A stretch of DNA of 29,064 bases. Source: a virus. The stretch's first letter is position 1, and every line of letters begins with the position of its first letter. Positions 3,156 to 29,063 of this stretch are shown piece after piece. The DNA lies in IMG/VR virus record IMGVR_UViG_3300022707_000474, positions 1 through 29,064 of that record; one strand, 5' to 3'. The notes below the pieces were generated by a model, which did not search any database, was not told the origin of the DNA, and saw nothing but the letters and a program-made list of their open reading frames with translations. The position numbers and the translations under genes were made by a program.

Positions 3156-3590
3156 TCACGGGATTAAATATTGACACTCAAACCAGAAAATTACCGGCCT
3201 AGGAGGAGCCTCGATTAGTCCAAATCTTTCAGCAGTACGAAAATTAACTGATGATCTCCTAGCCCTTTCAACTTGTAACTGTATTTCTTTCCTGAATTGG
3301 TCAATAGTAAACGTCGCTTTGAATAGGTTGCAGGGAGCGCAGGAAGGAACCATATTGTCGATAGTGTCATTCTCAGGGTTCAGCATTCCGTCATTTTCCA
3401 GCAACGTCTGGACTGATTCAGGGACTTCACCAAAGGCATTGACAGCCTTAGTCTTTGTATTAATCACTCTAAAAACGGGGTTTAAGTGGTCTACATGCCA
3501 CCCCTTATCCGGTAATTTCTGACCACAATACCAGCACCAACCCTTTGATTTATCCCATATGACTTTTCGTTGTTTTTTACTTATAGTCAC
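3156..3590 (-). CDS. HNH endonuclease
   Basis: A 144-residue HNH-family nuclease on the minus strand. Visible elements are a zinc-binding CWYC (Cys19, Cys22), the catalytic HVDH (His32, Asp34, His35) and a second CAPCN pair (Cys84, Cys87) at the end of the beta-beta-alpha-metal fold. The start is GTG at 3590, with GGGAG 8 bases upstream. It is transcribed toward the terminator that ends the portal unit, opposite to its left neighbours. This is the usual look of a free-standing homing-type endonuclease inserted between phage genes. Such enzymes can also serve in packaging, but phages that use them that way place them next to the terminase in the same direction, which is not the case here. Confidence 0.87.
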   Translation of the reverse strand: MTISKKQRKVIWDKSKGWCWYCGQKLPDKGWHVDHLNPVFRVINTKTKAVNAFGEVPESVQTLLENDGMLNPENDTIDNMVPSCAPCNLFKATFTIDQFRKEIQLQVERARRSSVNFRTAERFGLIEAPPRPVIFWFECQYLIP

Positions 3591-3635
3591 ATCTATTCTC
3601 CCGGTTGTATTGGCCTAAATAATAGCAAATACACC

Positions 3636-3664
3636 TTGATAACACAACACTTAACTGTTATTGT
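3636..3664 (+). promoter_or_regulatory. Candidate sigma70-type promoter for the small-gene train
   Basis: TTGATA (3636-3641), a 17-base spacer and TATTGT (3659-3664) lie 24 bases before the GTG of the first rightward small gene at 3688. The -35 box and spacing are good and the -10 box is fair. It lies in the divergent space between the leftward HNH gene and the rightward gene train, where a promoter is expected. Confidence 0.45.
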
Positions 3665-3687
3665 TTCTTAACAAATTGAGGTGTTCA

Positions 3688-3813
3688 GTGGCAATTAAGA
3701 TCAAATGTTCAGAGTGTAAAAAGTTCAAGTGGATGAACCGCCATGCAAAGACTTGTGGCGTTAAGTGTCGTGCGCGAAGGTTCAGGCGGCTTGGAAAGCT
3801 AAAAAATAAATAG
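3688..3813 (+). CDS. 41-aa zinc-ribbon-like protein
   Basis: A short, strongly basic protein starting at GTG, with GAGGTG 5 bases upstream. It has CSEC near the N-terminus and a second pair, CGVKC, about 13 residues later, followed by an Arg/Lys-rich tail (RARRFRRLGKLKNK). The four cysteines suit one zinc ion, and the tail suggests nucleic-acid binding. I infer a small regulator or DNA/RNA-binding protein; the family is not recognised. Its stop is followed by GAGGAG, which serves the next gene. Confidence 0.6.
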   Translation: MAIKIKCSECKKFKWMNRHAKTCGVKCRARRFRRLGKLKNK

Positions 3814-3825
3814 AGGAGTATGGTG

Positions 3826-4281
3826 ATGGGGGTATTGCTGCAAGATTGGTTTAACGAGAACATGCCAGAGGAAGACTTGATTTATGGCAAAGGAATGAAA
3901 GGTCAAGTTATATGGGTTAGAGATTCGCTGGCATGGATGATATATAGATCGCTTGCAGAAAATCACCCTGAGCCAGAAAAAGGGTGGCGATCAATTGTAA
4001 GTGTAAGCAGCACACACAGGTCCAAGTCAGTAGTGCTTCCGGTATATCGGTTTTGCTGCGCCGACACGGTGATAAAGATTCGCGGTAACTTCCACGATTG
4101 GTGTGTTCGTTATTCTGGGCCTAAAGTCGCTGAGTTTCCTACTTGGATGAGGGTTTATGAGTCAACAGGTTTCTATGAAGGAATGGAAGGCGATCATTCG
4201 GATATTAAGTTCTGTGTTGGTTCGCGGGAAGAAATGTATGCTGTAATTTGGTGGATGCTTAACAATACAGAGGCTGCTTAG
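3826..4281 (+). CDS. Hypothetical protein, 151 aa
   Basis: The product is not recognised. I chose ATG 3826 over ATG 3820 because GAGGA ends 8 bases before it, while at 3820 the spacing would be only 2. The protein is rich in Trp, Tyr and Met, has a motif-poor middle with two adjacent cysteines (RFCCAD) and ends with an aromatic helix (AVIWWMLNN). There is no signal peptide and no clear membrane segment, so a soluble cytoplasmic protein is likely. It is the second gene of the rightward train of small genes. Confidence 0.65.
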   Translation: MGVLLQDWFNENMPEEDLIYGKGMKGQVIWVRDSLAWMIYRSLAENHPEPEKGWRSIVSVSSTHRSKSVVLPVYRFCCADTVIKIRGNFHDWCVRYSGPKVAEFPTWMRVYESTGFYEGMEGDHSDIKFCVGSREEMYAVIWWMLNNTEAA

Positions 4282-4314
4282 TCGCGTTTCTGTACAACAA
4301 CGGAGTATAAGATT

Positions 4315-4497
4315 GTGGGAAAAAGAGTAGCCAAAAAAGAGGTCTACAAGTTCAAGAAAGGCGAGCTACTTAGTCTTGATAGTATTTACGATGTGCAGGG
4401 TATCGGAGGCAACGATTGGTGGGAGCCTGAAGAAGGCAGCGAAGATAGCTTGATCGTAACTCGCGACCACCATTTTGTAATAACCTTTTACGAATAA
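4315..4497 (+). CDS. Hypothetical protein, 60 aa
   Basis: A small protein starting at GTG 4315, with GGAG about 9 bases upstream. It has a basic N-terminus (MGKRVAKKEVYKFKKGE) followed by an acidic part (WWEPEEGSEDS) and ends in a beta-like segment. The length and charge split recall small phage modulators of host proteins, but no family is recognised. A TGTAC motif lies 24 bases before its start. Confidence 0.55.
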   Translation: MGKRVAKKEVYKFKKGELLSLDSIYDVQGIGGNDWWEPEEGSEDSLIVTRDHHFVITFYE

Positions 4498-4575
4498 CAC
4501 GCGAATATGTACTTTGACGGGAGTTAGAAAATGACATGGCTCAGAGACAATAATACACACTGCGGAGGTATCGAT

Positions 4576-4803
4576 ATGAGCGACAAATTGACTAATAGAT
4601 TGCGCGGGCAATACAAGGTTGGGCCGGATAACGTATATGGAACCAGAAGTTTCGCTGATTTTATCCCGCCTATTTCATTGGAGGCAGCAGACAGAATCGA
4701 ACTACTTGAGCGGTATATCTGTAAAGTTGTTGAAATGGACATGGATGAATTTTCAATACTTGAGCCTGAAGATGTTTATTCAGAATTAGGTATAACGAGT
4801 TAA
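4576..4803 (+). CDS. Hypothetical phage protein, 75 aa (MSDKLTNRLR type)
   Basis: I chose ATG 4576, preceded by GGAGG with 7-base spacing. An in-frame ATG at 4531 also has an SD (GGGAG), which would add 15 residues. From 4576 the protein begins MSDKLTNRLRGQ and carries EAADRIELLERY. This is the layout of a widespread family of small phage proteins: an rLR motif near the start, then an EAA-x-RIE-x-LE helix. Their function is unknown. Two stacked start sites, each with an SD, are unusual and may give two protein forms or a short coupled leader. Confidence 0.65.
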   Translation: MSDKLTNRLRGQYKVGPDNVYGTRSFADFIPPISLEAADRIELLERYICKVVEMDMDEFSILEPEDVYSELGITS

Positions 4804-4827
4804 AGTACAACAAAGGAGTATTAATTT

Positions 4828-5199
4828 ATGAAAACTGGGATCGAACTAATAAGTAATGAGCGTTTGCGTCAGGTTTCTGATGAGGGTTGGACGCCAGAAC
4901 ACGATGATGAGCACGACGATGGCTCGCTTGCTTTGGCTGCCGTATGTTACGCAGCGCCGGTGCTTGTTTATAAGGTTAATGAATTGGCAACGGGATTTGC
5001 ATTTTTCGACCCTTGGCCGCATAACTGGAGTGATGGTTGGGATAAAAGATTCGTTTACGGCGAAAGGAAAAGGAATCCGGGCAACATGCCGCCAGACCCA
5101 AATACGTACACCAATACAGAACGCATCGACTTGCTTGTCAAGGCTGGTGCTCTGATTGCCGCAGAGATCGACAGGCTTCAGCGAATTGATAAAACGTAA
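4828..5199 (+). CDS. Conserved phage hypothetical protein, 123 aa (EGWTPEHDDEH type)
   Basis: This protein belongs to a common phage and prophage family whose members begin with a GIELI-x-ERxRQ segment, followed by EGWTPEHDDEHDDG, LA-x-AAxCYA, a Trp-rich centre (DPWPHNW) and a closing RIDLLVKAGALIAAEIDRLQR helix. All these parts are visible. Similar proteins occur in early or accessory regions of many phages, and I know no reaction for them. The conserved His/Asp/Glu cluster suggests metal binding, which is inference. GGAG precedes the ATG, and the upstream junction carries the AGTACAACAA form of the repeated leader. Confidence 0.75.
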   Translation: MKTGIELISNERLRQVSDEGWTPEHDDEHDDGSLALAAVCYAAPVLVYKVNELATGFAFFDPWPHNWSDGWDKRFVYGERKRNPGNMPPDPNTYTNTERIDLLVKAGALIAAEIDRLQRIDKT

Positions 5200-5222
5200 T
5201 TATGTACGAAGGGAGAAGTTAG

Positions 5223-5423
5223 ATGGTGAATGTAGTTATACCACCTGAACAAGAATTCCTGATGGAGAACGATTCTGCCTATAGGGAGGCAGTAAATCTA
5301 GCCGCTCACATGGTAAAAATGTTTTATCCAGAAAACGACACTTTCATTCTTTGTGACAGCACTGCTGGCGTTATCTCTCAGATCGATAACATGGTTACAG
5401 GATTGGAAAGAGTCAAAACGTAA
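5223..5423 (+). CDS. Hypothetical protein, 66 aa
   Basis: A small acidic protein, not recognised. A GGGAG site sits 8 bases before the ATG. Two helical segments (AYREAVNLAAHMVKMFY and AGVISQIDNMVTGLERV) flank a short FILCDST strand. There is no signal peptide or membrane segment. It sits in the train of small genes with the TGTAC leader 20 bases before its start. Confidence 0.6.
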   Translation: MVNVVIPPEQEFLMENDSAYREAVNLAAHMVKMFYPENDTFILCDSTAGVISQIDNMVTGLERVKT

Positions 5424-5447
5424 ATATGTACTTTGAGGTGAATTAGA

Positions 5448-5663
5448 ATGATGCAAACCGGCTTTAAAATATTCGAGTGGGATGAAACAACAGGAAAAGC
5501 AGACTTCTATCGGCAGGGAGATTTGATACTTAGTCTCACTCTGCCCAGCTATGAGGAAGCGCATAGTATTTATACTGCATTTGAACACTGCTATAACAAA
5601 GGCGTCGATGATGGCCTTCAATGGATTAGTGAAGCCATACTAGACAAAAGAAACAGGCTTTAA
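5448..5663 (+). CDS. Hypothetical protein, 71 aa
   Basis: A small mixed alpha/beta protein, not recognised. It starts ATG ATG after GAGGTG, so either ATG may be used. It opens with a beta-like region (FKIFEWDETTGKADFYRQGD) and continues as one long helix (YEEAHSIYTAFEHCYNKGVDDGL). The last part resembles small phage proteins that end in a GxxDGLxW helix. TGTAC lies 21 bases before the start. Confidence 0.6.
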   Translation: MMQTGFKIFEWDETTGKADFYRQGDLILSLTLPSYEEAHSIYTAFEHCYNKGVDDGLQWISEAILDKRNRL

Positions 5664-5726
5664 CGCGCAATAATGTACTAAAAGAGATTCCCATTGTCTA
5701 TCAAAGGGCTATAGAGAGGATTACTG

Positions 5727-5948
5727 ATGAAAAACATGAACATTGAGGCGGCAATCGATCAAGTAAAATACCTCATGAGCATTCCCCTTTCGAAAAGAGT
5801 GTCTGTTGTTAATTCCTATATTGAAATTAATGGGCTTGATGTTCCTAAAATATCGCTAGAAGAAGTCGAGGCCCATCCTGGGAAAGAGGCATTATTGAGC
5901 CATGCTTATTCCAGAATAACCAGACCACACCTAACTATGAGCAAATAA
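5727..5948 (+). CDS. Hypothetical protein, 73 aa
   Basis: A small protein, not recognised, starting at ATG 5727 after GAGAGG. It has a helical N-terminus (IEAAIDQVKYLMSIPLSKRVSV) and an acidic middle (SLEEVEAHPGKEALL). It has no cysteines and no membrane segment. The gap before it (63 bases) is longer than at the other junctions of this train. It contains the TGTAC motif but at 53 bases from the start, which could mean an extra short element was inserted there. Confidence 0.55.
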   Translation: MKNMNIEAAIDQVKYLMSIPLSKRVSVVNSYIEINGLDVPKISLEEVEAHPGKEALLSHAYSRITRPHLTMSK

Positions 5949-5949
5949 C

Positions 5950-6189
5950 ATGAGCGTGACTAGAATTATTTGTGACGATTGCGGATTCCTCCAGGTTTAC
6001 TGTGGATGCGTGAAGATAACCTCATGGCAACGATTTAACTCTGACACTGGAGCCTGGGTCCACAATCATATTCAAGACGGACATGTATCTGGCGACAAGC
6101 CTACCGGAGAGCCGCATCAGACATCTAATTGGGCTAAAGGTGATTGGAAGAAAGAATACAAGCATCTTGTTGATAACAGAGTGGGGTAA
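5950..6189 (+). CDS. Cys-rich hypothetical protein, 79 aa
   Basis: The ATG follows the previous stop by one base. The N-terminus holds four cysteines in a compact pattern (ICDDCGFLQVYCGC), which suits a zinc ribbon. The rest is Trp- and His-rich, with VHNHIQDGH and NWAKGDWKKEY segments. I do not recognise the family. It is the last gene of the rightward train and meets the leftward operon tail to tail with a 2-base gap and no visible terminator. Confidence 0.6.
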   Translation: MSVTRIICDDCGFLQVYCGCVKITSWQRFNSDTGAWVHNHIQDGHVSGDKPTGEPHQTSNWAKGDWKKEYKHLVDNRVG

Positions 6190-6191
6190 TC

Positions 6192-6389
6192 CTAGAGCCT
6201 GGACGAAGTATGCCACCTTCCACAATACGTACAGAGATAAGGTCTTAACTCATACCCTCGCTCAGCAATAAAGTCTTGAGTTAACTCAATCGATTCAAAA
6301 GAGCGCTTTTTAATACAGTTAACCGCATCCTTACGATGTATCCTTTTCCAGACATTAGGGGCTTTGCTGAATTGAGGGTATTTGTTCAC
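6192..6389 (-). CDS. Small zinc-finger-like phage protein, 65 aa
   Basis: A basic small protein that ends with LRPYLCTYCGRWHTSSRL. The CxxCGxWH ending is shared by many small phage proteins of unknown function and looks like a half zinc finger. The start is GTG at 6389, overlapping the stop of the upstream gene by one base (TAGTG), so translation is coupled. It is the last gene of the leftward operon that begins at the RHH regulator. Confidence 0.65.
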   Translation of the reverse strand: MNKYPQFSKAPNVWKRIHRKDAVNCIKKRSFESIELTQDFIAERGYELRPYLCTYCGRWHTSSRL

Positions 6390-6664
6390 TATTTTTTCGC
6401 TATGGGATTAATCTCGTTCCATTGCCTGATCGCTTCTTCTTTGGTCTCACAGCAAGGATCGTAAAATTGGGGCTTACCTACTGCATGATCGCAGTTCATA
6501 CAATGAGCCGCCCATCCGCCAACGTCAGAGCATATGCAGGAACCCCATCCGCATTTAATACATCGATTCGCTTCTTCCATCCTATCAACCTCTATCGCCT
6601 CCCCTGTAACAGCATTGCGAACGGTGGTTACATTGTCTGGTATTCTTGTTTTGCCTTCTTTCAT
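6389..6664 (-). CDS. Lar-like restriction-alleviation/zinc-ribbon protein, 91 aa
   Basis: This protein has CIKC (Cys35, Cys38), CIC (43, 45), CMNC (55, 58) and CC (71, 72), and ends in ETKEEAIRQWNEI. The combination of paired cysteines and a closing T-x-EEAIxxWN helix is the hallmark of Lar-type phage and prophage zinc proteins. Lar of the Rac prophage relieves type I restriction by acting with the host modification enzyme. Many relatives are annotated as Lar only by this pattern, so the activity is inference. Its extra cysteines and N-terminal basic segment differ from the short standard form. Confidence 0.6.
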   Translation of the reverse strand: MKEGKTRIPDNVTTVRNAVTGEAIEVDRMEEANRCIKCGWGSCICSDVGGWAAHCMNCDHAVGKPQFYDPCCETKEEAIRQWNEINPIAKK

Positions 6665-6743
6665 GGCCTTGGTCCTTGTGTCGTGTCAAATAACGTCAAA
6701 CCTTGTTGTGTCGCATATATTGAGAATTATCATACACAAAGTC

Positions 6744-6941
6744 CTATCCCTTCCTCGTATTGAAATCACCGGGCAATACATTATCAAGAAAATCCTCTTT
6801 ATTCTCTGGCCCGGCAAAAAACCGCTTTGACGATGAAAATTTACATTCTGGATAATTACTACACCCAAAGAAATCGCCATGCCTTCCCTTTCTCGCTACC
6901 ATCAAAACCTTGCAGCGTGGGCATGTAGGCGTCTTATTCAT
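6744..6941 (-). CDS. Topoisomerase-type C4 zinc-finger protein, 65 aa
   Basis: The first 35 residues form a classic zf-C4_Topoisom domain: CPRC (Cys7, Cys10), a KGRHGDFFGC stretch (Cys27) and SNYPEC (Cys33). This finger is found at the C-terminus of type IA topoisomerases, where it binds single-stranded DNA. Here it stands alone with a 30-residue tail, as in several phages and mobile elements. It probably binds single-stranded nucleic acid. The ATG overlaps the upstream stop as ATGA. Confidence 0.8.
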   Translation of the reverse strand: MNKTPTCPRCKVLMVARKGRHGDFFGCSNYPECKFSSSKRFFAGPENKEDFLDNVLPGDFNTRKG

Positions 6942-7132
6942 AATAGATCATCATTACATATCTGATACATACACCATGACCAGAAACCTTTAATCACCGG
7001 CCCGTGTATGTGATTTATGTTGAATGAACACTTATCCCTAACATCGATGGGAAAGAACCCTCCCACCTCTTCAGTGTTGCCTTCAAAATCCTCACAAATA
7101 TAGATGAAGGGCTCCCATTGGTTAAGATTCAT
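6938..7132 (-). CDS. Hypothetical protein, 64 aa
   Basis: I chose ATG 7132 because AGGAG lies 8 bases upstream; the longer in-frame version would run through the tRNA gene. The protein begins MNLNQWEPFIYICEDFEG and is rich in aromatic residues and isoleucine, with three cysteines spread along it. No family is recognised. It follows the tRNA-Cys gene directly and overlaps the next gene by four bases. Confidence 0.6.
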   Translation of the reverse strand: MNLNQWEPFIYICEDFEGNTEEVGGFFPIDVRDKCSFNINHIHGPVIKGFWSWCMYQICNDDLL

Positions 7133-7150
7133 TTTATTACTCCTAATTAT

Positions 7151-7224
7151 TGGAGGCTGTAGCTGGACTCGAACCAGCGAAAACGGTGTTGCAGACCGCG
7201 ACCTTACCACTTGGTTATACAGCC
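7151..7224 (-). tRNA. tRNA-Cys (anticodon GCA)
   Basis: A complete cloverleaf can be drawn on the minus strand. The 7-bp acceptor stem (GGCTGTA with TACAGCC) is perfect. The D arm is a 3-bp ACC/GGT stem, the anticodon stem GCGGT/ACCGT carries loop CTGCAAC, and the T stem GCTGG/CCAGC carries loop TTCGAGT. The anticodon is GCA, so it reads Cys codons. The base before the 3' end is T (U73), the known identity base for cysteinyl-tRNA synthetase, and CCA is encoded. It lies inside a leftward operon between the DUF5131 gene and a small gene. Confidence 0.96.
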
Positions 7225-7232
7225 TTAACTAT

Positions 7233-8069
7233 CTATAATCCTTGTGGCCAATTCTTGTGCTTGTTTCCATCGAGCGTAGACCCTGCTTTTTTCTTTCCTA
7301 CGCTCTCGCCCTGTTCGTTGAATTGGCCCCATTGTTTAAAAAAGAAATCGACGTTCGCTTCTGCGCATTGATCTCTAATTATTTTTGCCCACTCTGGATT
7401 CATTGGCCGAGCATTTGGCCCTGACTCGCCACCAACAACAACCCAGTCTAGCTTATGTAATCGACTATCAAAATAAACGCTCCTTATCAACGGTTCAGCG
7501 CTAACCCATCGAACGGCGGCGGGTGTATCGACTAAAAAAGGTATTCGTAAATCGTGTGTTACTTGATCTTCAACACTCACGCCAAGCCAGACATTTTTTA
7601 ATGGCAGGTTCAGCATGCTAGGCCAATTGACAGACTTATCGGTCATTTCATCCATGTGAACTGCTATTCTGGATTCCAATAATCCCATTTGGAAATATTT
7701 ATACATCCGCTCTGGTCGTTTGGTGAGGATTTGAAAGGTATGCTTTGGCGATAATGCCATCACTGCGAAAATCTTATCGATGTAATATTCTGGCACATTC
7801 TCATGGAACAAATCAGACATGGAATTAACGAACACCATCCGTGGTTTGGTCCATCTAATCGGCTGATCAAGCATCTTCTCGACAAGCTTAATCTTTCCGT
7901 TCCACTGGCCTCCTTTTGCAATTAATCCTTCATATGGCATGCCAACCCCTTTAAATCGATTGGCTACAGTTTCCGCATAGCAATTCATACAGCCTTCCGA
8001 AACCCTGGAACAACCTCTAATTGGATTCCATGTGGCATCCGTCCACTCAATTCCTGTTTTATCTCCCAT
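7233..8069 (-). CDS. DUF5131 (phage Gp37/Gp68 family) protein
   Basis: A 278-residue protein of the Gp37/Gp68 family, recognised by its opening: GIEWTDATWNPIRGCSRVSEGC and NCYAE. The three cysteines lie at 20, 27 and 30 (CX6CX2C), a spacing that suggests an iron-sulfur or metal site. Other family marks are FVNSMSDLFHENVP (about 80-93), ILTKRPERM (about 115-123), NVWLGVSVEDQ (about 158-168) and VVGGESGPNARPMNPEW. The alternating strands suit a TIM-barrel-like fold related to radical-SAM enzymes; that link is inference and the reaction is unknown. The length is typical. GAGGAG lies 8 bases before the ATG. It sits next to a tRNA-Cys in the same transcription unit. Confidence 0.88.
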   Translation of the reverse strand: MGDKTGIEWTDATWNPIRGCSRVSEGCMNCYAETVANRFKGVGMPYEGLIAKGGQWNGKIKLVEKMLDQPIRWTKPRMVFVNSMSDLFHENVPEYYIDKIFAVMALSPKHTFQILTKRPERMYKYFQMGLLESRIAVHMDEMTDKSVNWPSMLNLPLKNVWLGVSVEDQVTHDLRIPFLVDTPAAVRWVSAEPLIRSVYFDSRLHKLDWVVVGGESGPNARPMNPEWAKIIRDQCAEANVDFFFKQWGQFNEQGESVGKKKAGSTLDGNKHKNWPQGL

Positions 8070-8107
8070 AGTAATGACTCCTCATTGTTTATAGTTAGTT
8101 TTTTCTG

Positions 8108-8332
8108 CTAATTCATTTCAATATCTATAATCGCCTCTGGCCTTAAGCACAAGACATAAGGAGGCCCACTCGAAACGTCCGTTACTCTCGGTATCCCTCC
8201 CTTTTCTTCACAGCGCAACTCGGACGCTTCAGTTTGCTGCATCCTGGAGTGGACTATAGTGCCCAGCCAAATAAGCCATATCAATGATATTGCAATCAAT
8301 ATATAGAGCGCTCTATCGAGGGTTATATTCAT
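8108..8332 (-). CDS. Small single-pass membrane protein, 74 aa
   Basis: The N-terminus has one hydrophobic helix (about residues 7-26, rich in Leu, Ile and Trp) after MNITLDRA. A polar domain of about 48 residues follows, with two cysteines, CEEKGG and VLCLRPE, spaced to form one disulfide or metal pair. The topology is probably N-in with the domain in the periplasm. ATG 8332 overlaps the stop of the RHH gene (TGATG), so the two are co-translated. The family resembles small phage membrane proteins with a CxxxGGxP motif in the outer part; the function is unknown. Confidence 0.65.
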   Translation of the reverse strand: MNITLDRALYILIAISLIWLIWLGTIVHSRMQQTEASELRCEEKGGIPRVTDVSSGPPYVLCLRPEAIIDIEMN

Positions 8333-8481
8333 CACTTCAAATCCTTCTTAATAAGCCTGTCTATGTAATCAGACATGGTGATTTCCAGCTCTTCGCAGCG
8401 TTTTACCATCTTGGCTTTAATGGAAGGCTTGAGGTTGATTCCAACATGAGCTGTTCTGAGTTCTCGTTTAATCTTCGACAT
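8332..8481 (-). CDS. Ribbon-helix-helix (CopG/Arc-like) regulator, 49 aa
   Basis: A short protein with the layout of an RHH repressor: a basic N-terminus with a strand (LRTAHVGINL), then helix A (PSIKAKMVKRCEEL), a short turn (EITM) and helix B (SDYIDRLIKKDL). Its length is normal for the family, which binds DNA as dimers through the strand. It is the first gene of the leftward operon and lies next to two facing promoters and a palindrome, so it probably regulates that region. The direction of regulation is inference. A weak ribosome site precedes the ATG. Confidence 0.72.
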   Translation of the reverse strand: MSKIKRELRTAHVGINLKPSIKAKMVKRCEELEITMSDYIDRLIKKDLK

Positions 8482-8487
8482 TTTATC

Positions 8488-8516
8488 TTGACCTATATTG
8501 AATAATCATTTACTAT
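8488..8516 (+). promoter_or_regulatory. Rightward sigma70-type promoter
   Basis: TTGACC (8488-8493), a 17-base spacer and TACTAT (8511-8516) form a strong consensus-like promoter for the genes starting at 8567. The predicted start near 8523 leaves about 44 bases of leader. It faces a leftward promoter whose -10 box begins only 9 bases away. Confidence 0.7.
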
Positions 8517-8524
8517 TTGTTTGC

Positions 8525-8553
8525 AGTATAACGATTTATTAATAAATAATCAA
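8525..8553 (-). promoter_or_regulatory. Leftward sigma70-type promoter for the RHH operon
   Basis: Read on the minus strand, TTGATT (8553-8548), a 17-base spacer and TATACT (8530-8525) form a good promoter for the operon starting with the RHH gene at 8481. Its span faces the rightward promoter at 8488-8516, so one polymerase bound here should hinder the other. Confidence 0.68.
8534..8547. promoter_or_regulatory. 14-bp AT-rich palindrome, candidate operator
   Basis: ATTTATTAATAAAT is a perfect palindrome inside the spacer of the leftward promoter and just after the start point of the rightward one. Its position suits an operator for the RHH protein encoded next door, which would repress itself. 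AT-rich DNA can give palindromes by chance, so this is a candidate only. Confidence 0.45.
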
Positions 8554-8566
8554 ACGGAGAAGAGAA

Positions 8567-8752
8567 ATGTTATTCGATTTATTTTGTGCAGTGCTCGACC
8601 CAACCACATCAGTTGTCGGCGGCGTAACTGAGAACTATGCGGCCATTAAAGCTAGTCAGGCAGCAACAAGGAGGCTTTCTGAGATAAAAGATAGCGAGCT
8701 TAAAAGCGTGCAGATTGACTATTATCGCAAGAAGCTTAAAGAGTTAGAGTAA
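8567..8752 (+). CDS. Hypothetical protein, 61 aa
   Basis: A small protein with a mildly hydrophobic start (MLFDLFCAVLDP), then a Ser/Ala stretch, and a long charged helix (about residues 28-61, with KLKELE at the end) that may form a coiled coil. GGAGAAGAG lies a few bases before the ATG. It is the first gene downstream of the rightward promoter at 8488 and the opposite partner of the RHH operon. No family is recognised. Confidence 0.6.
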   Translation: MLFDLFCAVLDPTTSVVGGVTENYAAIKASQAATRRLSEIKDSELKSVQIDYYRKKLKELE

Positions 8753-8812
8753 ACCTAGATAATTTGCCTAATAAGCACTAACACCAAGGATGGCTATAAA
8801 CAGGAGAGAGTG

Positions 8813-8950
8813 ATGAAGGCGGTAAAAGATATGGGACCGACCAGCAAGACCACCATTGCACACCAGATGTGTGACATGGAAAGAAAGCATATTGAAATAT
8901 TGACTTGCGATAAATGCGGAAAGCTAAAGCGGTTCGTCGAGAGTATATGA
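8813..8950 (+). CDS. 45-aa CxxC protein
   Basis: A short ORF starting at ATG 8813, with AGGAG 7 bases upstream. It contains a helical centre (HQMCDMERKHIEI) and ends with TCDKCGKLKRFVESI, a half zinc ribbon. It is too short for one complete four-Cys site unless it dimerises or uses Cys20 and a His. It lies in line with the genes before and after it, with short gaps. Confidence 0.5.
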   Translation: MKAVKDMGPTSKTTIAHQMCDMERKHIEILTCDKCGKLKRFVESI

Positions 8951-8960
8951 GGTATAAGCA

Positions 8961-9164
8961 ATGAGCGATCACATAGAGTTTTTCAGAATAACAAAGGACG
9001 TAAAGATTAATATTGGTGATCCTGACTGGAATAACCCGGTAACCATTGAACAGCTCTATCAAGCCTTTAAGTCCAGGTTACTGGAAGAAACTAAGGAGCA
9101 GGCTGAGGAAGAGTTTCAGCAAGTTGTTTCTATGCTAATGAGAGGGGATGAGACGATTAATTAA
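8961..9164 (+). CDS. Hypothetical protein, 67 aa
   Basis: A small acidic protein, not recognised. The N-terminal half (DHIEFFRITKDVKINIGD) is beta-like. The C-terminal half is one long Glu-rich helix (LYQAFKSRLLEETKEQAEEE). It begins 10 bases after the preceding gene, with GAGG in the gap. Its end overlaps the end of the leftward gene at 9157 by 8 bases, tail to tail. Confidence 0.6.
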   Translation: MSDHIEFFRITKDVKINIGDPDWNNPVTIEQLYQAFKSRLLEETKEQAEEEFQQVVSMLMRGDETIN

Positions 9165-9378
9165 CCTTTCTTTTCAACATATCCAATACAGGTTTAAGCT
9201 CTCCAAAATCATTAATGTCATTCTCAATATCCTCTTCGTGCGCCATTACCCACTTTAAAACAGGCTCCATAGACTGAATAACAAGCTCTACAGCCTCAGC
9301 AGCTTCTTGAAATAGAACATACTTACCGTCTAATCGTTCTTTCATTACGAGTGAATTGGAGGGTTTAAAGCGTTTCAC
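9157..9378 (-). CDS. Hypothetical protein, 73 aa
   Basis: A small helical protein, not recognised: a basic start (MKRFKPSNSLVMKERLDGK), then two helices (FQEAAEAVELVIQSMEPVL and an acidic DIENDINDFGELKPVLDML). Its ATG overlaps the stop of the preceding gene as ATGA. It is the last gene of the leftward operon that starts near 11170. Confidence 0.6.
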   Translation of the reverse strand: MKRFKPSNSLVMKERLDGKYVLFQEAAEAVELVIQSMEPVLKWVMAHEEDIENDINDFGELKPVLDMLKRKVN

Positions 9379-9629
9379 GTTACATCCTCTACTATTTCAT
9401 CATCCATAAAAAAAATTGGCTCAGGGGTAATAAGATGAAAATATTCAAATTTAGGGAAGCGCCCTACATGATCGAAGGAAAGACCGGTAGGTGATCTGTG
9501 GTAGAAGTCAATGCTCCCATCGTCACTTACTTGGACTGAATAGGCGGAAATGATCACATGTTTATCTTTATCCAGTTGTAGATGAAAGGATCGCTCAAGT
9601 TCATTATGTGTACGTATTTTAGAAATCAT
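9375..9629 (-). CDS. Hypothetical protein, 84 aa
   Basis: A mostly beta-strand protein, not recognised. It has a His-rich centre (SIDFYHRSPTGLSFDHVGRF, EYFHLITPEP) and an acidic end. I chose ATG 9629, with GGAG 7 bases upstream; a GTG one codon earlier would sit too close. It lies between two leftward genes, with 21 bases to the one upstream. Confidence 0.6.
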   Translation of the reverse strand: MISKIRTHNELERSFHLQLDKDKHVIISAYSVQVSDDGSIDFYHRSPTGLSFDHVGRFPKFEYFHLITPEPIFFMDDEIVEDVT

Positions 9630-9650
9630 CACTTCACTCCATACAGTTGA

Positions 9651-10019
9651 CTAAGATAGACGGGCATATTCGTCTTCAGTAAAGTACGTATCTTTGAATA
9701 TGTCGGGCTTGCACGGGTAAAATTCTCCCTTAATTCCTTTGATAATCCAGTCAGCAGGACAAACAATATGACCCCCTTCCAGCGTATCGATCCAGCCGTG
9801 GTTATGCATTATGTCTGAGCAGTGCCGGCAGAAATCAGTACCGTTTGTCTTTGGGTTTCGGTAGCGCCGCACCACCTTTCCTTCGCTTAAAAAAGGCTCC
9901 CGTTCTGGCGCTCCAGCACCGCTAGGAGCAACCATTTCACAGATGTCCTCTGGATGATCGCCATTTTTAAACCATTGGTCAGCGTCTATTGCTACTGGCT
10001 TTTTAATAAATTTAGGCAT
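9651..10019 (-). CDS. Conserved phage protein, PGDYG-type, 122 aa
   Basis: This belongs to a widespread phage family that opens with a KKPVxIDAxQW strand and ends with W-I-x-TLEGGHIV, a DWIIKGIKGEFYPCKPDIF block and a short TYFTEDEYARL tail. All of these are clear here. The centre has CRHC (about 64-67) and NHGW, a probable metal site found in the longer members. No biochemical role is known to me, and such genes sit in early or accessory regions. Its start overlaps the end of the preceding gene by 8 bases. In this copy the usual GD before W is AD (PADWIIKG). Confidence 0.82.
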   Translation of the reverse strand: MPKFIKKPVAIDADQWFKNGDHPEDICEMVAPSGAGAPEREPFLSEGKVVRRYRNPKTNGTDFCRHCSDIMHNHGWIDTLEGGHIVCPADWIIKGIKGEFYPCKPDIFKDTYFTEDEYARLS

Positions 10020-10299
10020 TGCTTATTTCCTCTTCAATAATCTGAGCGGCTAAAATAGTGTTTTCATCTGTAAGCAGCTTTATCGTGCCAAACCCTTCGA
10101 TAGGCGCGCTTGTAGCGATGCATTGAGTAGGGTGTGTTCTATATATTCCGTCCCCTTTATTAAGTTCAGAAAGAGCCTGCAATTGTGTCATTGTCTTAAT
10201 CGCTCCTGTGAATTTATCCAGGTACTCTTTTGCATTGTCTATAGATTTGCGATTTTTTGCTTTGTTGTCAGAGTTCATTGCTCTTTTGACTAAATCCAT
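10012..10299 (-). CDS. Hypothetical protein, 95 aa
   Basis: A small protein with a helical, basic N-terminus (about residues 1-50) and a beta-like C-terminal half ending in a short acidic helix (AAQIIEEEISNA). No family is recognised. The ATG overlaps the preceding stop (TGATG) and GGAGGGAGAG lies just upstream, inside the end of that gene, so coupling is clear. Confidence 0.6.
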   Translation of the reverse strand: MDLVKRAMNSDNKAKNRKSIDNAKEYLDKFTGAIKTMTQLQALSELNKGDGIYRTHPTQCIATSAPIEGFGTIKLLTDENTILAAQIIEEEISNA

Positions 10300-11009
10300 C
10301 ACTCTCCCTCCAGTTTTTTGGTTGTACTAATCACCCAGTCCAGGCCCAGCGTCAACTCATCACTTAATGTAATAAGCTCGCTATCAGGTAACTCGGCTAG
10401 CTTTCTCAGCTTATCCAGGGCCGAGACAGCACGGCTGTAGGTGTATCTTTCTTTGTCAGGAGAGATGATAGTGCCCTCTACTTTAAGTTCGAAGTAGGCA
10501 GCTTCACCAGACAAGCCACCGAGCCTAAGATCGCCTATGGCCCACTCCTTAGACAAAAAGGCAGCGGGCTTGTTAAACTTATAAAAGTCACGGGAAGAAC
10601 GGAATACTTCGGAGATATAATGCATAGTCTCATAAACAATCTCACCCTCTCCTTTGTGTTTAGCTGCCAGTGCTTTTAATACGGCTTCGTGTAATTCGAC
10701 GCCTACAAGTTTTGGAGTGGCATTCCTGATGACGGTCTCATCGGTCCACTTAAAGCATAGGAACTGGCGGTCTGTTTTCTGCACGGAGGTATCCTGTGAT
10801 AATTCAGCCACTATCTCGCTAAATCTTTCTACGAGAATGCCTACATTAATCGCGTCAGATAGACGACCCATTTCTTCCTCTGAGTCTTCATCCCACTTCT
10901 TCCATTCCGCTGACAGAGACTCATGAACTGGCCTAATGGTTTTCTCATTGGCTTTTATGATTCGTAATAACGTAGCTGCTTTGTATGCTACGGCGCCTTT
11001 ATTTTTCAT
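10299..11009 (-). CDS. Hypothetical protein, 236 aa
   Basis: The largest unknown protein of the accessory block. It begins with a helix (AYKAATLLRIIKANEKTIRPV), runs through acidic helices (EWKKWDEDSEEEMGRLSDA), and has a single cysteine near residue 85 (QFLCFKW). A Ser/Leu-rich part from about residue 150 ends in long helices (SRAVSALDKLRKLAELPDS). There is no signal peptide, membrane segment or nucleotide-binding motif. ATG 11009 overlaps the stop of a small HTH-like gene. I do not recognise the family; a soluble, mainly helical protein is all that can be said. Confidence 0.65.
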   Translation of the reverse strand: MKNKGAVAYKAATLLRIIKANEKTIRPVHESLSAEWKKWDEDSEEEMGRLSDAINVGILVERFSEIVAELSQDTSVQKTDRQFLCFKWTDETVIRNATPKLVGVELHEAVLKALAAKHKGEGEIVYETMHYISEVFRSSRDFYKFNKPAAFLSKEWAIGDLRLGGLSGEAAYFELKVEGTIISPDKERYTYSRAVSALDKLRKLAELPDSELITLSDELTLGLDWVISTTKKLEGE

Positions 11010-11348: not shown

Positions 11349-12170
11349 ATGAGTGATGAGCTACAAACCGGCGATGCGGCTGTGGAAACCACGCCAATTC
11401 CCGAAGACCAGGAAGCTGGAGCAGATTTAGCAACTGCTACTGAAGGGCAACAGGAATCAAACGCTCAGGTTGACGAAGCGGCTGCGAAACAAGCACAAGC
11501 GCAAGAAGCCACTCAAAAGGTTATTAACGAAAAGCACTACCAAGCCAAGCAAGCAGAGCGAGAGCGAGATGATGCTTTAGCCCAAGTTGCTAAGTTTGAG
11601 CAGGACAAGAGAGAGTCTGAAGCGGCGCGAGTCGGTGAAATTCCCCCTATTCCTGATGAATTCGATGATAACTTTAAAGAGAAAATGGTTTTACGTGACG
11701 AGGCGATTGCGAACAAGGCACACCACGAACACAGCGAAGCGGCTTATCAGCAAAGCCTCCAAGACCAACAGGCACAAGAGGTACAACGGCAAAACGCAGT
11801 ATTCCAACAGGCTTCGGTAAGTTACAACGCCAGGGCCTTAGAGCTTGGAATTGATACGCAAGAATTGCAAGCAGCCGGTAATCAGGTAGTTAGTTATGGC
11901 CTTACTCCTCAGCTGACAATGAACATTTTGGCTGATAAAGACGGACCATTGATTACTAAGTTTTTGGCCGCTAACCCTATGGAAGCTTTTAATCTGGCAA
12001 ACATGTCAGAGTTTCAACAAGGAGCAGCCATAGAAGCCATTCGTGCTAAAGCCGACTCTCTTAAGCCGAAAACAAGTAATACGCCCAATCCGCCCGACAT
12101 TTTGTCAGGCAATGGTGCTGAAGTGGATACAAACAAATATCCAAACAGTAAGGGGGCGACATTTTCATGA
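11349..12170 (+). CDS. Capsid scaffolding protein (P22 gp8-like role)
   Basis: A 273-residue, highly helical, acidic protein rich in Ala, Gln and Glu. It lies directly before the coat gene, the position of scaffolding proteins, which fill the procapsid and guide coat assembly. A long coiled coil is likely from about residue 40 to 165. The C-terminus has a PDILSGNGAE and KGATFS ending seen in scaffolds of this phage group. P22 gp8 is about 303 residues. Sequence matching in scaffolds is weak, so the call rests mainly on position and composition. The start ATG opens a new transcription unit after the accessory block. Confidence 0.8.
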   Translation: MSDELQTGDAAVETTPIPEDQEAGADLATATEGQQESNAQVDEAAAKQAQAQEATQKVINEKHYQAKQAERERDDALAQVAKFEQDKRESEAARVGEIPPIPDEFDDNFKEKMVLRDEAIANKAHHEHSEAAYQQSLQDQQAQEVQRQNAVFQQASVSYNARALELGIDTQELQAAGNQVVSYGLTPQLTMNILADKDGPLITKFLAANPMEAFNLANMSEFQQGAAIEAIRAKADSLKPKTSNTPNPPDILSGNGAEVDTNKYPNSKGATFS

Positions 12171-26505: not shown

Positions 26506-26795
26506 ACATCGACAGAAAGTTTATAAGCTGGGTCGCAGGACTTCCCATAGTGATTGGAGGTGTATTAGCCACGGCTGAAGATCGATGGAACCAGCAGCAG
26601 CAAGTAGAAGCCGCTAAGAAGGCTGGCAACGGTACGGCATATCTGATGTACGCTACAGTGGTAAACGGGCTGAATCGCAACGTAAGAAGGCTTACGCTGA
26701 AAGAAACCAAGACTCCCGAAGATAAACTTAATATTAAAGAAATGGAGCAGGAGATTAAGGATATTAAAGAGCATCAGAAGGGATTGCTTGAATGA
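26502..26795 (+). CDS. One-TM coiled-coil protein, 97 aa (possible inner-membrane spanin)
   Basis: The N-terminus has one hydrophobic segment (about residues 8-24, WVAGLPIVIGGVLATA). A long charged, mostly helical part follows, ending in EMEQEIKDIKEHQKGLL, which could form a coiled coil. This is the i-spanin layout (Rz-like), and the partner could be the lipoprotein upstream. The middle contains a YLMYATVVNGLNRNVRRLT stretch. No family is recognised by sequence. ATGA overlap with the DUF1353 gene. Confidence 0.5.
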   Translation: MNIDRKFISWVAGLPIVIGGVLATAEDRWNQQQQVEAAKKAGNGTAYLMYATVVNGLNRNVRRLTLKETKTPEDKLNIKEMEQEIKDIKEHQKGLLE

Positions 26796-27220
26796 TCGTT
26801 AATCAACTGAGAACTTATAAAGAAGATTGTACTGAATCAGACCTCTATATTAACGGATTGCAATACTGTTATGTCTTGGAAGATGTAGGCAGACCCCACG
26901 GAGTTAAAATTAACAGAGAAACCTGTATCCCAGAAGGCCACTACAAGGCCGTAATAACCCGTAGTAATCGATTTAAGAAGGATATGATCTTACTCTACAA
27001 CCAGGAAGATATGTCCGTAGAGCGCTTTGGAGTACGTTTCACAGGTATTAGAGTACATGGTGGGAATAACACCGAACACACAGCCGGATGTCCTTTAGTC
27101 GGATTTAAACGATCAGAAGGGAAAGTGTACAATAGTGCGAGTGACAAGTTACGAGAACGAGTTCAGTCAGCGATAGACGCTGGTGAAACCATCGATTGGA
27201 TTATTACAGAGGAATTATAA
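26792..27220 (+). CDS. DUF5675 protein with L,D-transpeptidase-like motif, 142 aa
   Basis: The protein shows the DUF5675 pattern: an LxTxKEDCTESDLYINGLQ start, CYVLEDVGRP, ETCIPEGHYKAVITRS and FTGIRVHGGNNTEHTAGCPL. The last stretch, His89-Gly90 with a Cys100 eleven residues after the His (preceded by His96, Gly99), resembles the HG-x(n)-GC active site of YkuD L,D-transpeptidases. Peptidoglycan processing is inferred, not known. It lies in the lysis part of the operon, where no classic endolysin is seen. The ATG overlaps the preceding stop. Confidence 0.72.
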   Translation: MIVNQLRTYKEDCTESDLYINGLQYCYVLEDVGRPHGVKINRETCIPEGHYKAVITRSNRFKKDMILLYNQEDMSVERFGVRFTGIRVHGGNNTEHTAGCPLVGFKRSEGKVYNSASDKLRERVQSAIDAGETIDWIITEEL

Positions 27221-27339
27221 TGGTCGGCATACTTAAAACCATAGCAAGGCGTAAGCCAAAGAAAGCCAAGAAATCGGCCAAGAAATCAAGTCACAAGTCG
27301 GGTCACAAATCGAGCCATAAAAAATCTCGGAAGACTTAA
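27220..27339 (+). CDS. Lys/Ser/His-rich basic peptide, 39 aa
   Basis: An ATG overlapping the DUF5675 stop (TAATG) opens a 39-residue frame that, after MVGILKTIARR, consists almost only of Lys, Ser and His with KK and SHKSGHK repeats. Charge is very high. It may bind nucleic acid or the membrane. The fit to both neighbours (stop, one base, next ATG) supports it as a real gene. Confidence 0.55.
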   Translation: MVGILKTIARRKPKKAKKSAKKSSHKSGHKSSHKKSRKT

Positions 27340-27340
27340 T

Positions 27341-27832
27341 ATGAACGAAATTTATCTAACCTTGTTAGGACTTGTTTTCATTGCTCTGGCTGGATGGCGC
27401 AATAGTGTACCGGCGGTATTGTTTGGCCTTCTAATGTTTGGTCATGCTATTTTCTTAGGTGATTTGGCACAATCCGATCCTATGACTTACTTATTCACCG
27501 CAGGGATAGCGTCTACTTTAGCGATGGCTGGTTGTTATGCATTCAGAACAAGTTTGCATGATGTAATTGCTTTCAGAATGGCGGCTATTGGAGCAGCGTG
27601 TTTGTTAGTGAATATCATTGGTATTATTTTTTGGTTAATGGATAGCCCAATGGGGGGTTTTAATTATGTATTTGCCGCGATTCTGCTGGCAAGCATCGTC
27701 GTCATCTTAAAAGGGGGCAAGGATGGACTGGGAAAAGGTGGAAGGAACCCTGTGGGTACTCATGCTCGTAATGCCACTGATAAAGTTTCTAATCGTGTGG
27801 TGGGACTGGAAAATAAAGAAGCAATTAAATGA
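27341..27832 (+). CDS. Polytopic membrane protein, 163 aa (holin candidate)
   Basis: Four or five hydrophobic helices are visible (about residues 3-20, 22-42, 49-68, 78-98, 103-123). A polar, Gly/Lys-rich tail of about 40 residues follows. The start context is GGAAG 8 bases before the ATG. Its place next to lysis-type genes makes it a holin or antiholin candidate, though it is longer than most. The stop overlaps the next gene's ATG as ATGA. No family is recognised with confidence. Confidence 0.55.
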   Translation: MNEIYLTLLGLVFIALAGWRNSVPAVLFGLLMFGHAIFLGDLAQSDPMTYLFTAGIASTLAMAGCYAFRTSLHDVIAFRMAAIGAACLLVNIIGIIFWLMDSPMGGFNYVFAAILLASIVVILKGGKDGLGKGGRNPVGTHARNATDKVSNRVVGLENKEAIK

Positions 27833-27947
27833 TCGAAGAACTGAAGAAGAAGATTTTGTCAGACCCGAATGTGCCCGATGTAGTTCCAGGGGTATTGGGT
27901 GTGAGCGTGGGCACAGCCGGTGCAGCCGATTTGACAGGGATGATTGA
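27723..27947 (+). CDS. Possible overlapping small TM gene, 74 aa
   Basis: In a third frame, ATG 27723 follows an unusually strong purine-rich ribosome site (AAAAGGGGGCAAGG). It encodes MDWEKVEGTLWVLMLVMPLI and more hydrophobic residues ending in WWDWKIKKQLND: a clear membrane helix with charged flanks. The rest (from residue about 38) is Cys/Arg-rich and looks like a frame shadow. The overlap with two other genes makes the whole ORF doubtful, but the first 37 codons look real. Confidence 0.4.
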   Translation: MDWEKVEGTLWVLMLVMPLIKFLIVWWDWKIKKQLNDRRTEEEDFVRPECARCSSRGIGCERGHSRCSRFDRDD

Positions 27948-28128
27948 TTTATTCGCCAATACATTTTCAACCCTCCTGACTTTATCCGCTCTAGTCGTAA
28001 CGATATTAACCGGAATCAATGCGTGGTACAGAAATAAACAGATCAAAATCAAGACGGCTAGGGATCAATTGGAGCTTGAAAAGGCTCGTTTGGAGCTTGA
28101 ACAACTACGCAAGACATATAAGGCTTAA
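27829..28128 (+). CDS. One-TM protein with coiled coil, 99 aa (holin/antiholin candidate)
   Basis: The protein starts MIEELKKKILSD, continues with an Ala/Gly/Val part, one membrane helix (about 48-65, TLLTLSALVVTILTGINAWY), then a Lys/Glu/Leu-rich coiled coil (RDQLELEKARLELEQLRKTY). The layout resembles class III holins or i-spanins. The ATG overlaps the preceding stop. It is the last rightward gene; its 3' end is overlapped on the other strand by a small ORF. Confidence 0.55.
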   Translation: MIEELKKKILSDPNVPDVVPGVLGVSVGTAGAADLTGMIDLFANTFSTLLTLSALVVTILTGINAWYRNKQIKIKTARDQLELEKARLELEQLRKTYKA

Positions 28129-28231
28129 AGAGATTAAACGTATACGTCACTACTCCAAGCGTTAATACACAAAAAAGAAGACTCAAGGTTACTTTCTGTC
28201 CAAAGGTTTCATTTTCCTTTTCACTGTTCAT
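28058..28231 (-). CDS. 57-aa single-TM protein, antisense overlap at 3' end
   Basis: On the minus strand, ATG 28231 overlaps the stop of the protease-like gene (ATGA), with GAGGT 6 bases upstream. It encodes a polar start (MNSEKENETFGQK), one membrane helix (VTLSLLFCVLTLGVVTYTF) and a Pro-rich tail. It shares 71 bases with the end of the rightward gene at 27829-28128. The start signal and the helix support it; the overlap means the last residues are less sure. Confidence 0.5.
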   Translation of the reverse strand: MNSEKENETFGQKVTLSLLFCVLTLGVVTYTFNLFKPYMSCVVVQAPNEPFQAPIDP

Positions 28232-28665
28232 TTTAATACCTCATTAAACGTATAAGATTGAATCCTTCCGCCTGTATGAACATTTCTTTTGCAAGCTATT
28301 TTGACGGCTTCTACAGCAGTAGCTCCAGCGTCCATAGCCCCTAAAGCTATTTCCCATCCGCTACCTTCAGTGACAAGCCCTGGATTTTTTTGTATGGTGG
28401 AGTACTCGAATAATAGATCCCAGCATTTCCCGGCGCGATCTATACAGACTAGAGATGCCTTCCCTTCCGGCATGTCTCCTTTTTCCCCAGCCCTTACCCA
28501 TCTTAAAGCTTTTTGGATATCACCTACAGATCCGGCAGCGGCAACAGCAACAAATCGACCAACCCTCAAAAATAGTTTTTTTGTTGTATTATTAGTAACT
28601 GTATCTCCACAGCACCTTCTACTATCCACGGCTAAAGTCTTTCCATCCCAAGCTATTGTTGTCAT
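28228..28665 (-). CDS. HslV/proteasome-like Ntn hydrolase, 145 aa
   Basis: After Met1 the sequence is TTIAWDGKTLAVDSRR, the opening of HslV and proteasome beta subunits: Thr2 as nucleophile, Asp14 in the AVDSR strand and Lys30 in the NNTTKKL segment match the HslV Thr1/Asp17/Lys33 triad. The glycine turn AAAGSVGD (about 42-49) matches HslV GFAGGTAD, and WEIALGAMDAG plus TAVEAVKIACKRN match its last helices. The length (145) is shorter than HslV (about 175). Met1 should be removed, as Thr is small. It probably forms a ring protease or a related enzyme; the partner unfoldase is not seen. The gene overlaps the next TM gene by ATGA. Confidence 0.82.
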   Translation of the reverse strand: MTTIAWDGKTLAVDSRRCCGDTVTNNTTKKLFLRVGRFVAVAAAGSVGDIQKALRWVRAGEKGDMPEGKASLVCIDRAGKCWDLLFEYSTIQKNPGLVTEGSGWEIALGAMDAGATAVEAVKIACKRNVHTGGRIQSYTFNEVLK

Positions 28666-28666
28666 A

Positions 28667-28891
28667 TCACTCTTCTCCTATAACAGTAATCTTACAATCA
28701 TCATTTAATGTTATTACACCGTCAATATTGCTTTTAACTGTGCAGGCGAGCATTACGGTTCTGGTTGATTCTATTGGTTCTGAATAAGTGTGTTTATCTG
28801 AAATAGTCACCAATATCACTAAAATAAGAAGCGCAATAAGGAATATCCCGATTGCCTGCAATACAAAATTTATCATCTTATTTGGCCGCAT
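28667..28891 (-). CDS. Small membrane protein, 74 aa
   Basis: The N-terminus has a positive start (MRPNK) and a strong hydrophobic helix (INFVLQAIGIFLIALLILVI); the rest is a small polar, beta-like domain with two cysteines (LACTVKSN and NDDCKITVIGEE), probably periplasmic. ATG 28876 (MINFV) could also be the start, as it follows the upstream stop directly. Gap of one base to the protease-like gene. The family is not recognised. Confidence 0.6.
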   Translation of the reverse strand: MRPNKMINFVLQAIGIFLIALLILVILVTISDKHTYSEPIESTRTVMLACTVKSNIDGVITLNDDCKITVIGEE

Positions 28892-29063
28892 ACTTTTTAG
28901 CTATAACCACCCTGTCTGGACATTCACACCGAGGAATTCCATGACGTTTTAATATACTACTCATTGTCTCGCGACATATTTCAAACTTCTCCGCTACAGA
29001 CCCCATCTGCGCCATTTTCCTGGCTTTTGAGTATTTTTCTTTAAGCTCCCAAAGCTCTGCAAC
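28878..29063 (-). CDS. HTH DNA-binding protein, 5' end outside window
   Basis: The frame is open to the window edge and ends at 28878. The visible 61 residues are helical and basic: KEKYSKARKMAQMGSVAEKF, EICRETMSSILKRHGI and a tail with CECPDR. The pattern MGSVAEKFEICRETMSSILKRHG is a helix-turn-helix of the type that reads DNA with its second helix. It is the first visible gene of the leftward right-end operon and may regulate it. The remainder lies outside the window. Confidence 0.6.
   Translation of the reverse strand, partial: VAELWELKEKYSKARKMAQMGSVAEKFEICRETMSSILKRHGIPRCECPDRVVIAKKYAAK

Follow-up and report, generated by a model that had tools for sequence, protein, structure and literature searches.

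Fuchs et al. described in 2021 a proteasome homologue of about 140 residues, PPH, in Caudovirales phages and their hosts, and called it the first true viral member of the proteasome family (PMC8665760). As published, PPH is devoid of helix H2, of a propeptide and of an AAA+ interactor, its genomic context was uninformative, and in the cluster map it falls with HslV and BPH (group I), apart from connectase (PMC8665760). Its closest known relatives are HslV (ClpQ), the dodecameric HslUV peptidase, the beta subunits of the 20S proteasome, and the betaproteobacterial proteasome homologue (BPH). Like PPH, BPH is compact and propeptide-free, and it is ATPase-independent, as PPH probably is; unlike PPH, it keeps H2, its pore loop is long and acidic, and it forms tetradecamers and is encoded by a bacterial gene (PMC5777263, PMC8665760). 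The literature that we searched on the function of phage HslV consisted of genome notes apart from the family description of 2021, with no report of PPH activity or function.

The DNA analysed here, referred to as the window, is a stretch of 29,064 nucleotides from IMG/VR record IMGVR_UViG_3300022707_000474. It belongs to a P22-like marine podovirus whose portal protein is closest to that of Pseudoalteromonas phage H6/1 (39% identity). An earlier note on this DNA had read one of its genes as an HslV/proteasome-like protease shorter than HslV, with no ATPase partner, in an operon with small membrane proteins.

A new carrier of a described family

The open reading frame at 28228–28665 (minus strand) is a real gene. 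Its product of 145 residues starts MTTIAWDGKTLAVDSRR, with MTTIAWDG as its first residues, so that a threonine comes right after the start Met and would be exposed as Thr1 upon Met removal. A Shine-Dalgarno sequence (AGGAG, 28675–28679, minus strand) lies 9 nt 5′ of the ATG, within the 3′ end of the upstream gene. Since a single base separates the stop codon of that upstream 74-residue gene from the ATG, and the 3′ end overlaps a downstream open reading frame of 57 residues by ATGA, the gene is the middle member of a tightly coupled operon.

Profile searches place the product among the proteasome and HslV-related families, as the note had anticipated, and the similarity exceeds chance by a wide margin. 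The protein matches PHROG 1040 ("peptidase HslV family") at E 6e-33 and, as a single sequence, Pfam Proteasome (PF00227) at 23.9 bits against a cut-off of 22.4, and its best phmmer matches are archaeal and eukaryotic beta subunits. A profile of 59 family sequences searched against the PDB recovered archaeal beta subunits (2e-12), HslV (2e-9) and BPH (E 4e-8). The curated HslV equivalog model of NCBI gave no match at E ≤ 1, and the sole NCBI model listed was archaeal beta, at 38 bits against a cut-off of 224. Relatives were found by tblastn in 119 phage records and, in a seeded search whose seeds included MTTIAWDG, on 114 IMG/VR stretches; PPH is thus carried by well over 100 phages, with very different hosts.

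The features given for PPH in 2021 are all found here: a length near 140 residues (145, with a median of 147 in the 59-member alignment), absence of H2 with H1, H3 and H4 present in the AlphaFold2 model, equivalents of Thr1, Asp17, Lys33 and the oxyanion glycine, no propeptide, no AAA+ partner, and occurrence in Caudoviricetes phages and prophage-bearing hosts. Sequence and predicted structure likewise agree with PF00227, an Ntn fold with an N-terminal nucleophile. The assignment follows the published description, with membership in PHROG 1040 standing in for the reference protein WP_042125023.1 and for the cluster map. Since every defining feature examined is present, the product is a new member of PPH, a family already described in 2021, and not a new system (PMC8665760; PHROG 1040); what the window adds is that a P22-like marine podovirus can carry PPH, and that PPH there shares an operon with genes for HTH and membrane proteins, an arrangement common only to one sister phage. 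The proteasome-like part of the first reading therefore stands, whereas HslV identity does not: the equivalog match is absent and helix H2 is missing, which is why we name the protein PPH and not HslV.

Active site and predicted fold

The catalytic residues noticed at first as Thr2, Asp14 and Lys30 (Met counted) are Thr1, Asp13 and Lys29 of the mature protein. Their codons lie on the minus strand at 28660–28662 (Thr1, the predicted nucleophile), 28624–28626 (Asp13, equivalent to Asp17 of proteasome and HslV) and 28576–28578 (Lys29, equivalent to Lys33), and the glycine turn corresponds to Gly44, in the oxyanion-hole region (28531–28533). Conservation was read from two sets, 19 named-phage homologues collected by tblastn (unseeded) and the 59-sequence alignment (seeded). 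The seed MTTIAWDG covers Thr1, so N-terminal conservation in the IMG/VR set is partly selected. A search artefact can nevertheless be set aside, for Thr1, Asp13 and Gly44 hold in the 19 unseeded homologues, among which Trp5-Asp6-Gly7 is variable. Thr1 is invariant in the 19 unseeded and in the 59 seeded sequences, a position inside the seed in the latter. Asp13 is kept in 20/20 sequences of the unseeded alignment and in 58/59 seeded ones (one Glu), and Gly44 in 20/20 and 58/59, respectively. Lys29 is found in 19/20 sequences of the unseeded alignment, the exception being PEi21, where the alignment is uncertain and may be wrong, and in 57/59 seeded sequences; the two exceptions (L019 and L071) each have a Lys one column off and are probably alignment shifts. 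The triad and glycine turn are thus retained in homologues, Lys29 nearly without exception.

Thr-Thr follows the start Met immediately in 80/80 IMG/VR loci of the seeded search. In 18/19 named phages the annotated start codon abuts Thr1, and AH02, annotated with a longer start, has an internal Met directly before it. Closely related PPH pairs have dN/dS values mostly between 0.05 and 0.2, a few pairs being too similar to judge; PPH is under purifying selection.

These patterns bear on whether PPH could have lost catalysis and serve in structure or regulation, as the alpha subunits of the proteasome do. The literature searched reports no assay, and the window copy has Asn127 where 49/59 aligned members have Asp (equivalent to proteasome Asp166). 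However, Asn127 also occurs in one other member of that alignment, HslV likewise lacks the proteasome Asp166, and the nucleophile, usually lost in dead homologues, is kept together with Asp13, Lys29 and Gly44 almost without exception across very divergent phages. We regard a dead homologue as very improbable.

AlphaFold2, run on the family alignment, predicts the Ntn fold expected of such a protease (pLDDT 95.3, pTM 0.89). In VIA-align, 1000/1000 chains compared reach Z ≥ 5 and 999/1000 reach Z ≥ 8; the top chain is E. coli HslV (Z 19.6, 2.1 Å rmsd over 139 residues), and the first residues of the two chains superpose. BPH was not among the VIA-align rows, an absence that is not evidence against similarity, and the best Foldseek matches of the model are 20S beta subunits. 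The S1 strand and first hairpin are about 4 residues shorter in PPH than in HslV. We considered whether this would displace the nucleophile, an idea that found no support, as residue 1 of the model aligns with residue 1 of both HslV and the beta subunits.

The main departure from HslV lies further along the chain. Since the model passes from a helix at 46–57 directly to a strand at 69–75 (with later helices at 103–111 and 116–126), the second HslV helix, H2, is missing, as is likewise indicated by the sequence-profile alignment to HslV (a sequence identical to PDB 1e94). Model and alignment agree that H2 and the pore-entrance segment of HslV (the Arg86/Arg89/Lys90 region) are deleted. The window protein therefore shares with HslV the fold, the Thr1/Asp/Lys site, the GSG motif and the Thr-Thr N-terminus, but is shorter, as the first reading had it, by 30 residues (145 versus 175). 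With the 20S beta subunit it has the Ntn fold and catalytic residues in common, but it lacks a propeptide, H2 and H5, and no alpha subunit was seen in the phage.

The lack of an ATPase partner was borne out on a wider scale. Profile search for an HslU/ClpX-type ATPase (PF07724) found none in 50 records that carry PPH (19 from named phages and 31 from IMG/VR, the window among the latter and some of these perhaps fragments), while 14/14 control genomes were positive; we accordingly rejected a phage-encoded unfoldase. A host could still supply one, and the protein might then be an HslV of the phage that, by docking on the host's HslU (or ClpX), diverts the ATP-dependent proteolysis of the cell. 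E. coli HslV is indeed the structurally closest solved fold, the phage itself has no ATPase, and Salmonella phage pSal-SNUABM-04 has been described with HslV and without HslU (PMC7823757). Against this stand the unmatched equivalog model and the very different hosts of PPH carriers; moreover, BPH lost its HslU-contact residues on becoming ATPase-independent (PMC5777263). Because the segment with H2 and the pore-entrance residues is deleted, use of a host HslU, which the note had offered as one option, is unlikely, and we consider the docking scenario as a whole quite improbable.

A different chemistry should also be weighed. PPH could be an Ntn amidase or transpeptidase, a connectase-like ligase or an acylase, perhaps monomeric, and not a peptidase. 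The proteasome-like family does include a ligase, connectase (PMC8665760), chemistry varies widely within the Ntn clan, and PPH is without one helix of the apical ring face. On the other hand, the 2021 cluster map puts PPH in group I with HslV and BPH and not with connectase, and the helical insertion that connectase carries between S3 and S4 is absent from the model (E16–18, E21–24). We take this alternative to be improbable.

Genomic context of PPH genes

The window gene lies between two small membrane protein genes, and the three follow an HTH gene, all on the minus strand. The HTH protein (28878–29063) is represented by its C-terminal part, cut by the window end. Directly upstream of PPH is the 74-residue single-TM protein (28667–28891, alternative start 28876), with a relative only in the sister contig, and downstream the 57-residue single-TM protein (28058–28231), whose homologue lies at 5615–5782 of that contig. 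The operon is directed towards the late genes at their lysis end, a convergent plus-strand region that includes a neighbouring DUF5675 protein (26792–27220, Pfam E 2e-20) and ends with a holin-like protein (27829–28128, phrog_20 holin, E 2e-4) whose 3′ end overlaps the 57-residue gene. This tail-to-tail overlap measures 71 nt (28058–28128) and is similar in the sister (5709–5782).

The sister contig, IMGVR_UViG_3300022707_000823 (L002/L102/L103), shows the same order of HTH, membrane, PPH and membrane genes. Identity to the window is 97% for the HTH fragment, 88% for DUF5675, 56% for PPH and 55–57% for the two small membrane proteins. Searches with each HTH and membrane protein returned the sister contig or nothing, and a DNA search with the operon matched no named phage. 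The operon seen at first is thus present but is not a conserved unit, because its HTH and membrane genes occur only in the window and the sister while PPH elsewhere has other neighbours; we rejected these genes as family-wide partners, and the co-conservation that had been looked for in other phages ends at this one contig. Transcription against the lysis genes holds for the window and the sister phage, but in other phages PPH is co-directional, inside or beside lysis and terminase genes. As the sister's HTH gene comes after HNH, YbcO-nuclease and RusA-like genes, the window operon probably forms the end of a recombination region of the nin type.

Some side observations concern these two phages. 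In the upstream membrane protein (4772–4999 in the sister, 28667–28891 in the window) the C-terminal 38 residues, with two cysteines, are almost unchanged while the TM half looks unrelated, a mosaic join inside one small gene. A basic protein of 39 residues in the lysis region (27220–27339), histone-tail-like in its extreme richness in Lys, Ser and His (KKAKKSAKKSSHKSGHKSSHKKSRKT), is conserved in the sister and has no Pfam match. DUF5675 lies at most 4 genes from PPH in the window, in the sister and in two unrelated Vibrio phages of 130–140 kb (L095, L096), possibly by chance. Some 8 kb of mixed-strand cargo (3156–11009), in which an HNH nuclease and a strong match to DUF5131 (PF07505, E 3e-97) are encoded, separate the portal (519–2897) from a scaffold-like gene (11349–12170), and a smaller insert, on the minus strand, occupies the same place in Pseudoalteromonas phage H6/1.

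Across phages, a positional trend emerges. PPH lies within 1.2 kb of the large terminase gene (TerL), on the same strand, in 15/31 records with a detected large terminase, against 1.8 expected under uniform placement, which is a lenient null; the IMG/VR contigs in these counts were chosen partly by hallmark genes, and related phages are not fully independent. Among named phages alone the distance is at most 4 kb in 5/9 (P 0.003). NinG scores above the cut-off in 9 records, and in 7 of these PPH follows it on its strand at a distance of 0.5–3.1 kb. The gene follows nin-type genes in the sister phage, precedes holins and endolysin in Escherichia phage Ivi, stands directly before an M15 endolysin at one locus (L004) and, at another (L003), has a membrane protein and an amidase after it. 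Exceptions are PEi21, Vibrio phages (by PhoH), Ruegeria phage V10 (by RNA ligase) and Erythrobacter phage XM05 (by DNA primase). Overall, PPH genes are concentrated where nin, lysis and terminase genes meet, a signal absent from the 2021 paper.

Roughly half of the records have PPH close to TerL and on its strand, and in the jumbo phages EL and SPN3US the two lie no more than about 5 kb apart. Such positions would suit a protease linked to head maturation or packaging, whose task would be to trim a protein of the head or portal or one associated with terminase. Yet in the window PPH is on the strand opposite to the P22-like head genes and well away from them; the portal gene sits at the opposite end of the contig, and no terminase gene is seen there. 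The P22-type scaffold is not known to be cleaved, and PPH genes beside lysis genes, PhoH, DNA primase or RNA ligase do not strictly track the head module. We therefore think such a role unlikely. Since cargo genes commonly occupy the nin/terminase junction, no function can be assigned from location alone.

A possible role for a minimal threonine hydrolase

We hypothesize that PPH is an ATPase-independent threonine peptidase, probably ring-forming, with an accessory role around the early-to-late switch, a reading that we find reasonably likely, its activity, ring and substrate being inferred. PPH would be a minimal N-terminal threonine hydrolase of the proteasome/HslV type. Because Thr comes right after the start Met and there is no propeptide, host Met-aminopeptidase should, by established rules, expose Thr1. 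Model and conservation support Thr1, Asp13 and Lys29 as the putative hydrolytic site, with Gly44 at the oxyanion hole. Judging from its relatives, subunits would probably stack as a double ring through the retained H3 and H4, with the active sites inside. As H2 is gone and the phage encodes no ATPase, the enzyme probably needs no unfoldase and acts on substrates that are either specific or loosely folded. Gene position, between nin-type recombination and lysis/packaging genes, suggests expression around the delayed-early to late switch, and PPH would most likely play an accessory part at that point, degrading or processing a protein of the phage or of its host.

A conserved site does not prove peptidase activity, since BPH, the closest studied ATPase-free relative, is inert on standard substrates although its Thr1 is free (PMC5777263). 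By analogy, PPH activity may be narrow or need a trigger. A bolder proposal sees in PPH a viral mini-proteasome that needs no ATPase and has a single conserved task, namely to cleave, through Thr1, a specific factor of phage or host at the late switch, for lysis or DNA packaging. This would explain the recurrent nin-to-lysis/terminase position in unrelated phages, and we hold it as a tentative and rather doubtful idea.

PPH is among the smallest proteasome relatives. Its frequent annotation as HslV suggests dependence on HslU, against which its structure argues, and the label is best avoided for this family. The location signal, which the 2021 paper did not report, offers a testable lead on PPH function. 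The identity of its substrate would show whether proteasome-type chemistry works without an unfoldase, and how the phage benefits.
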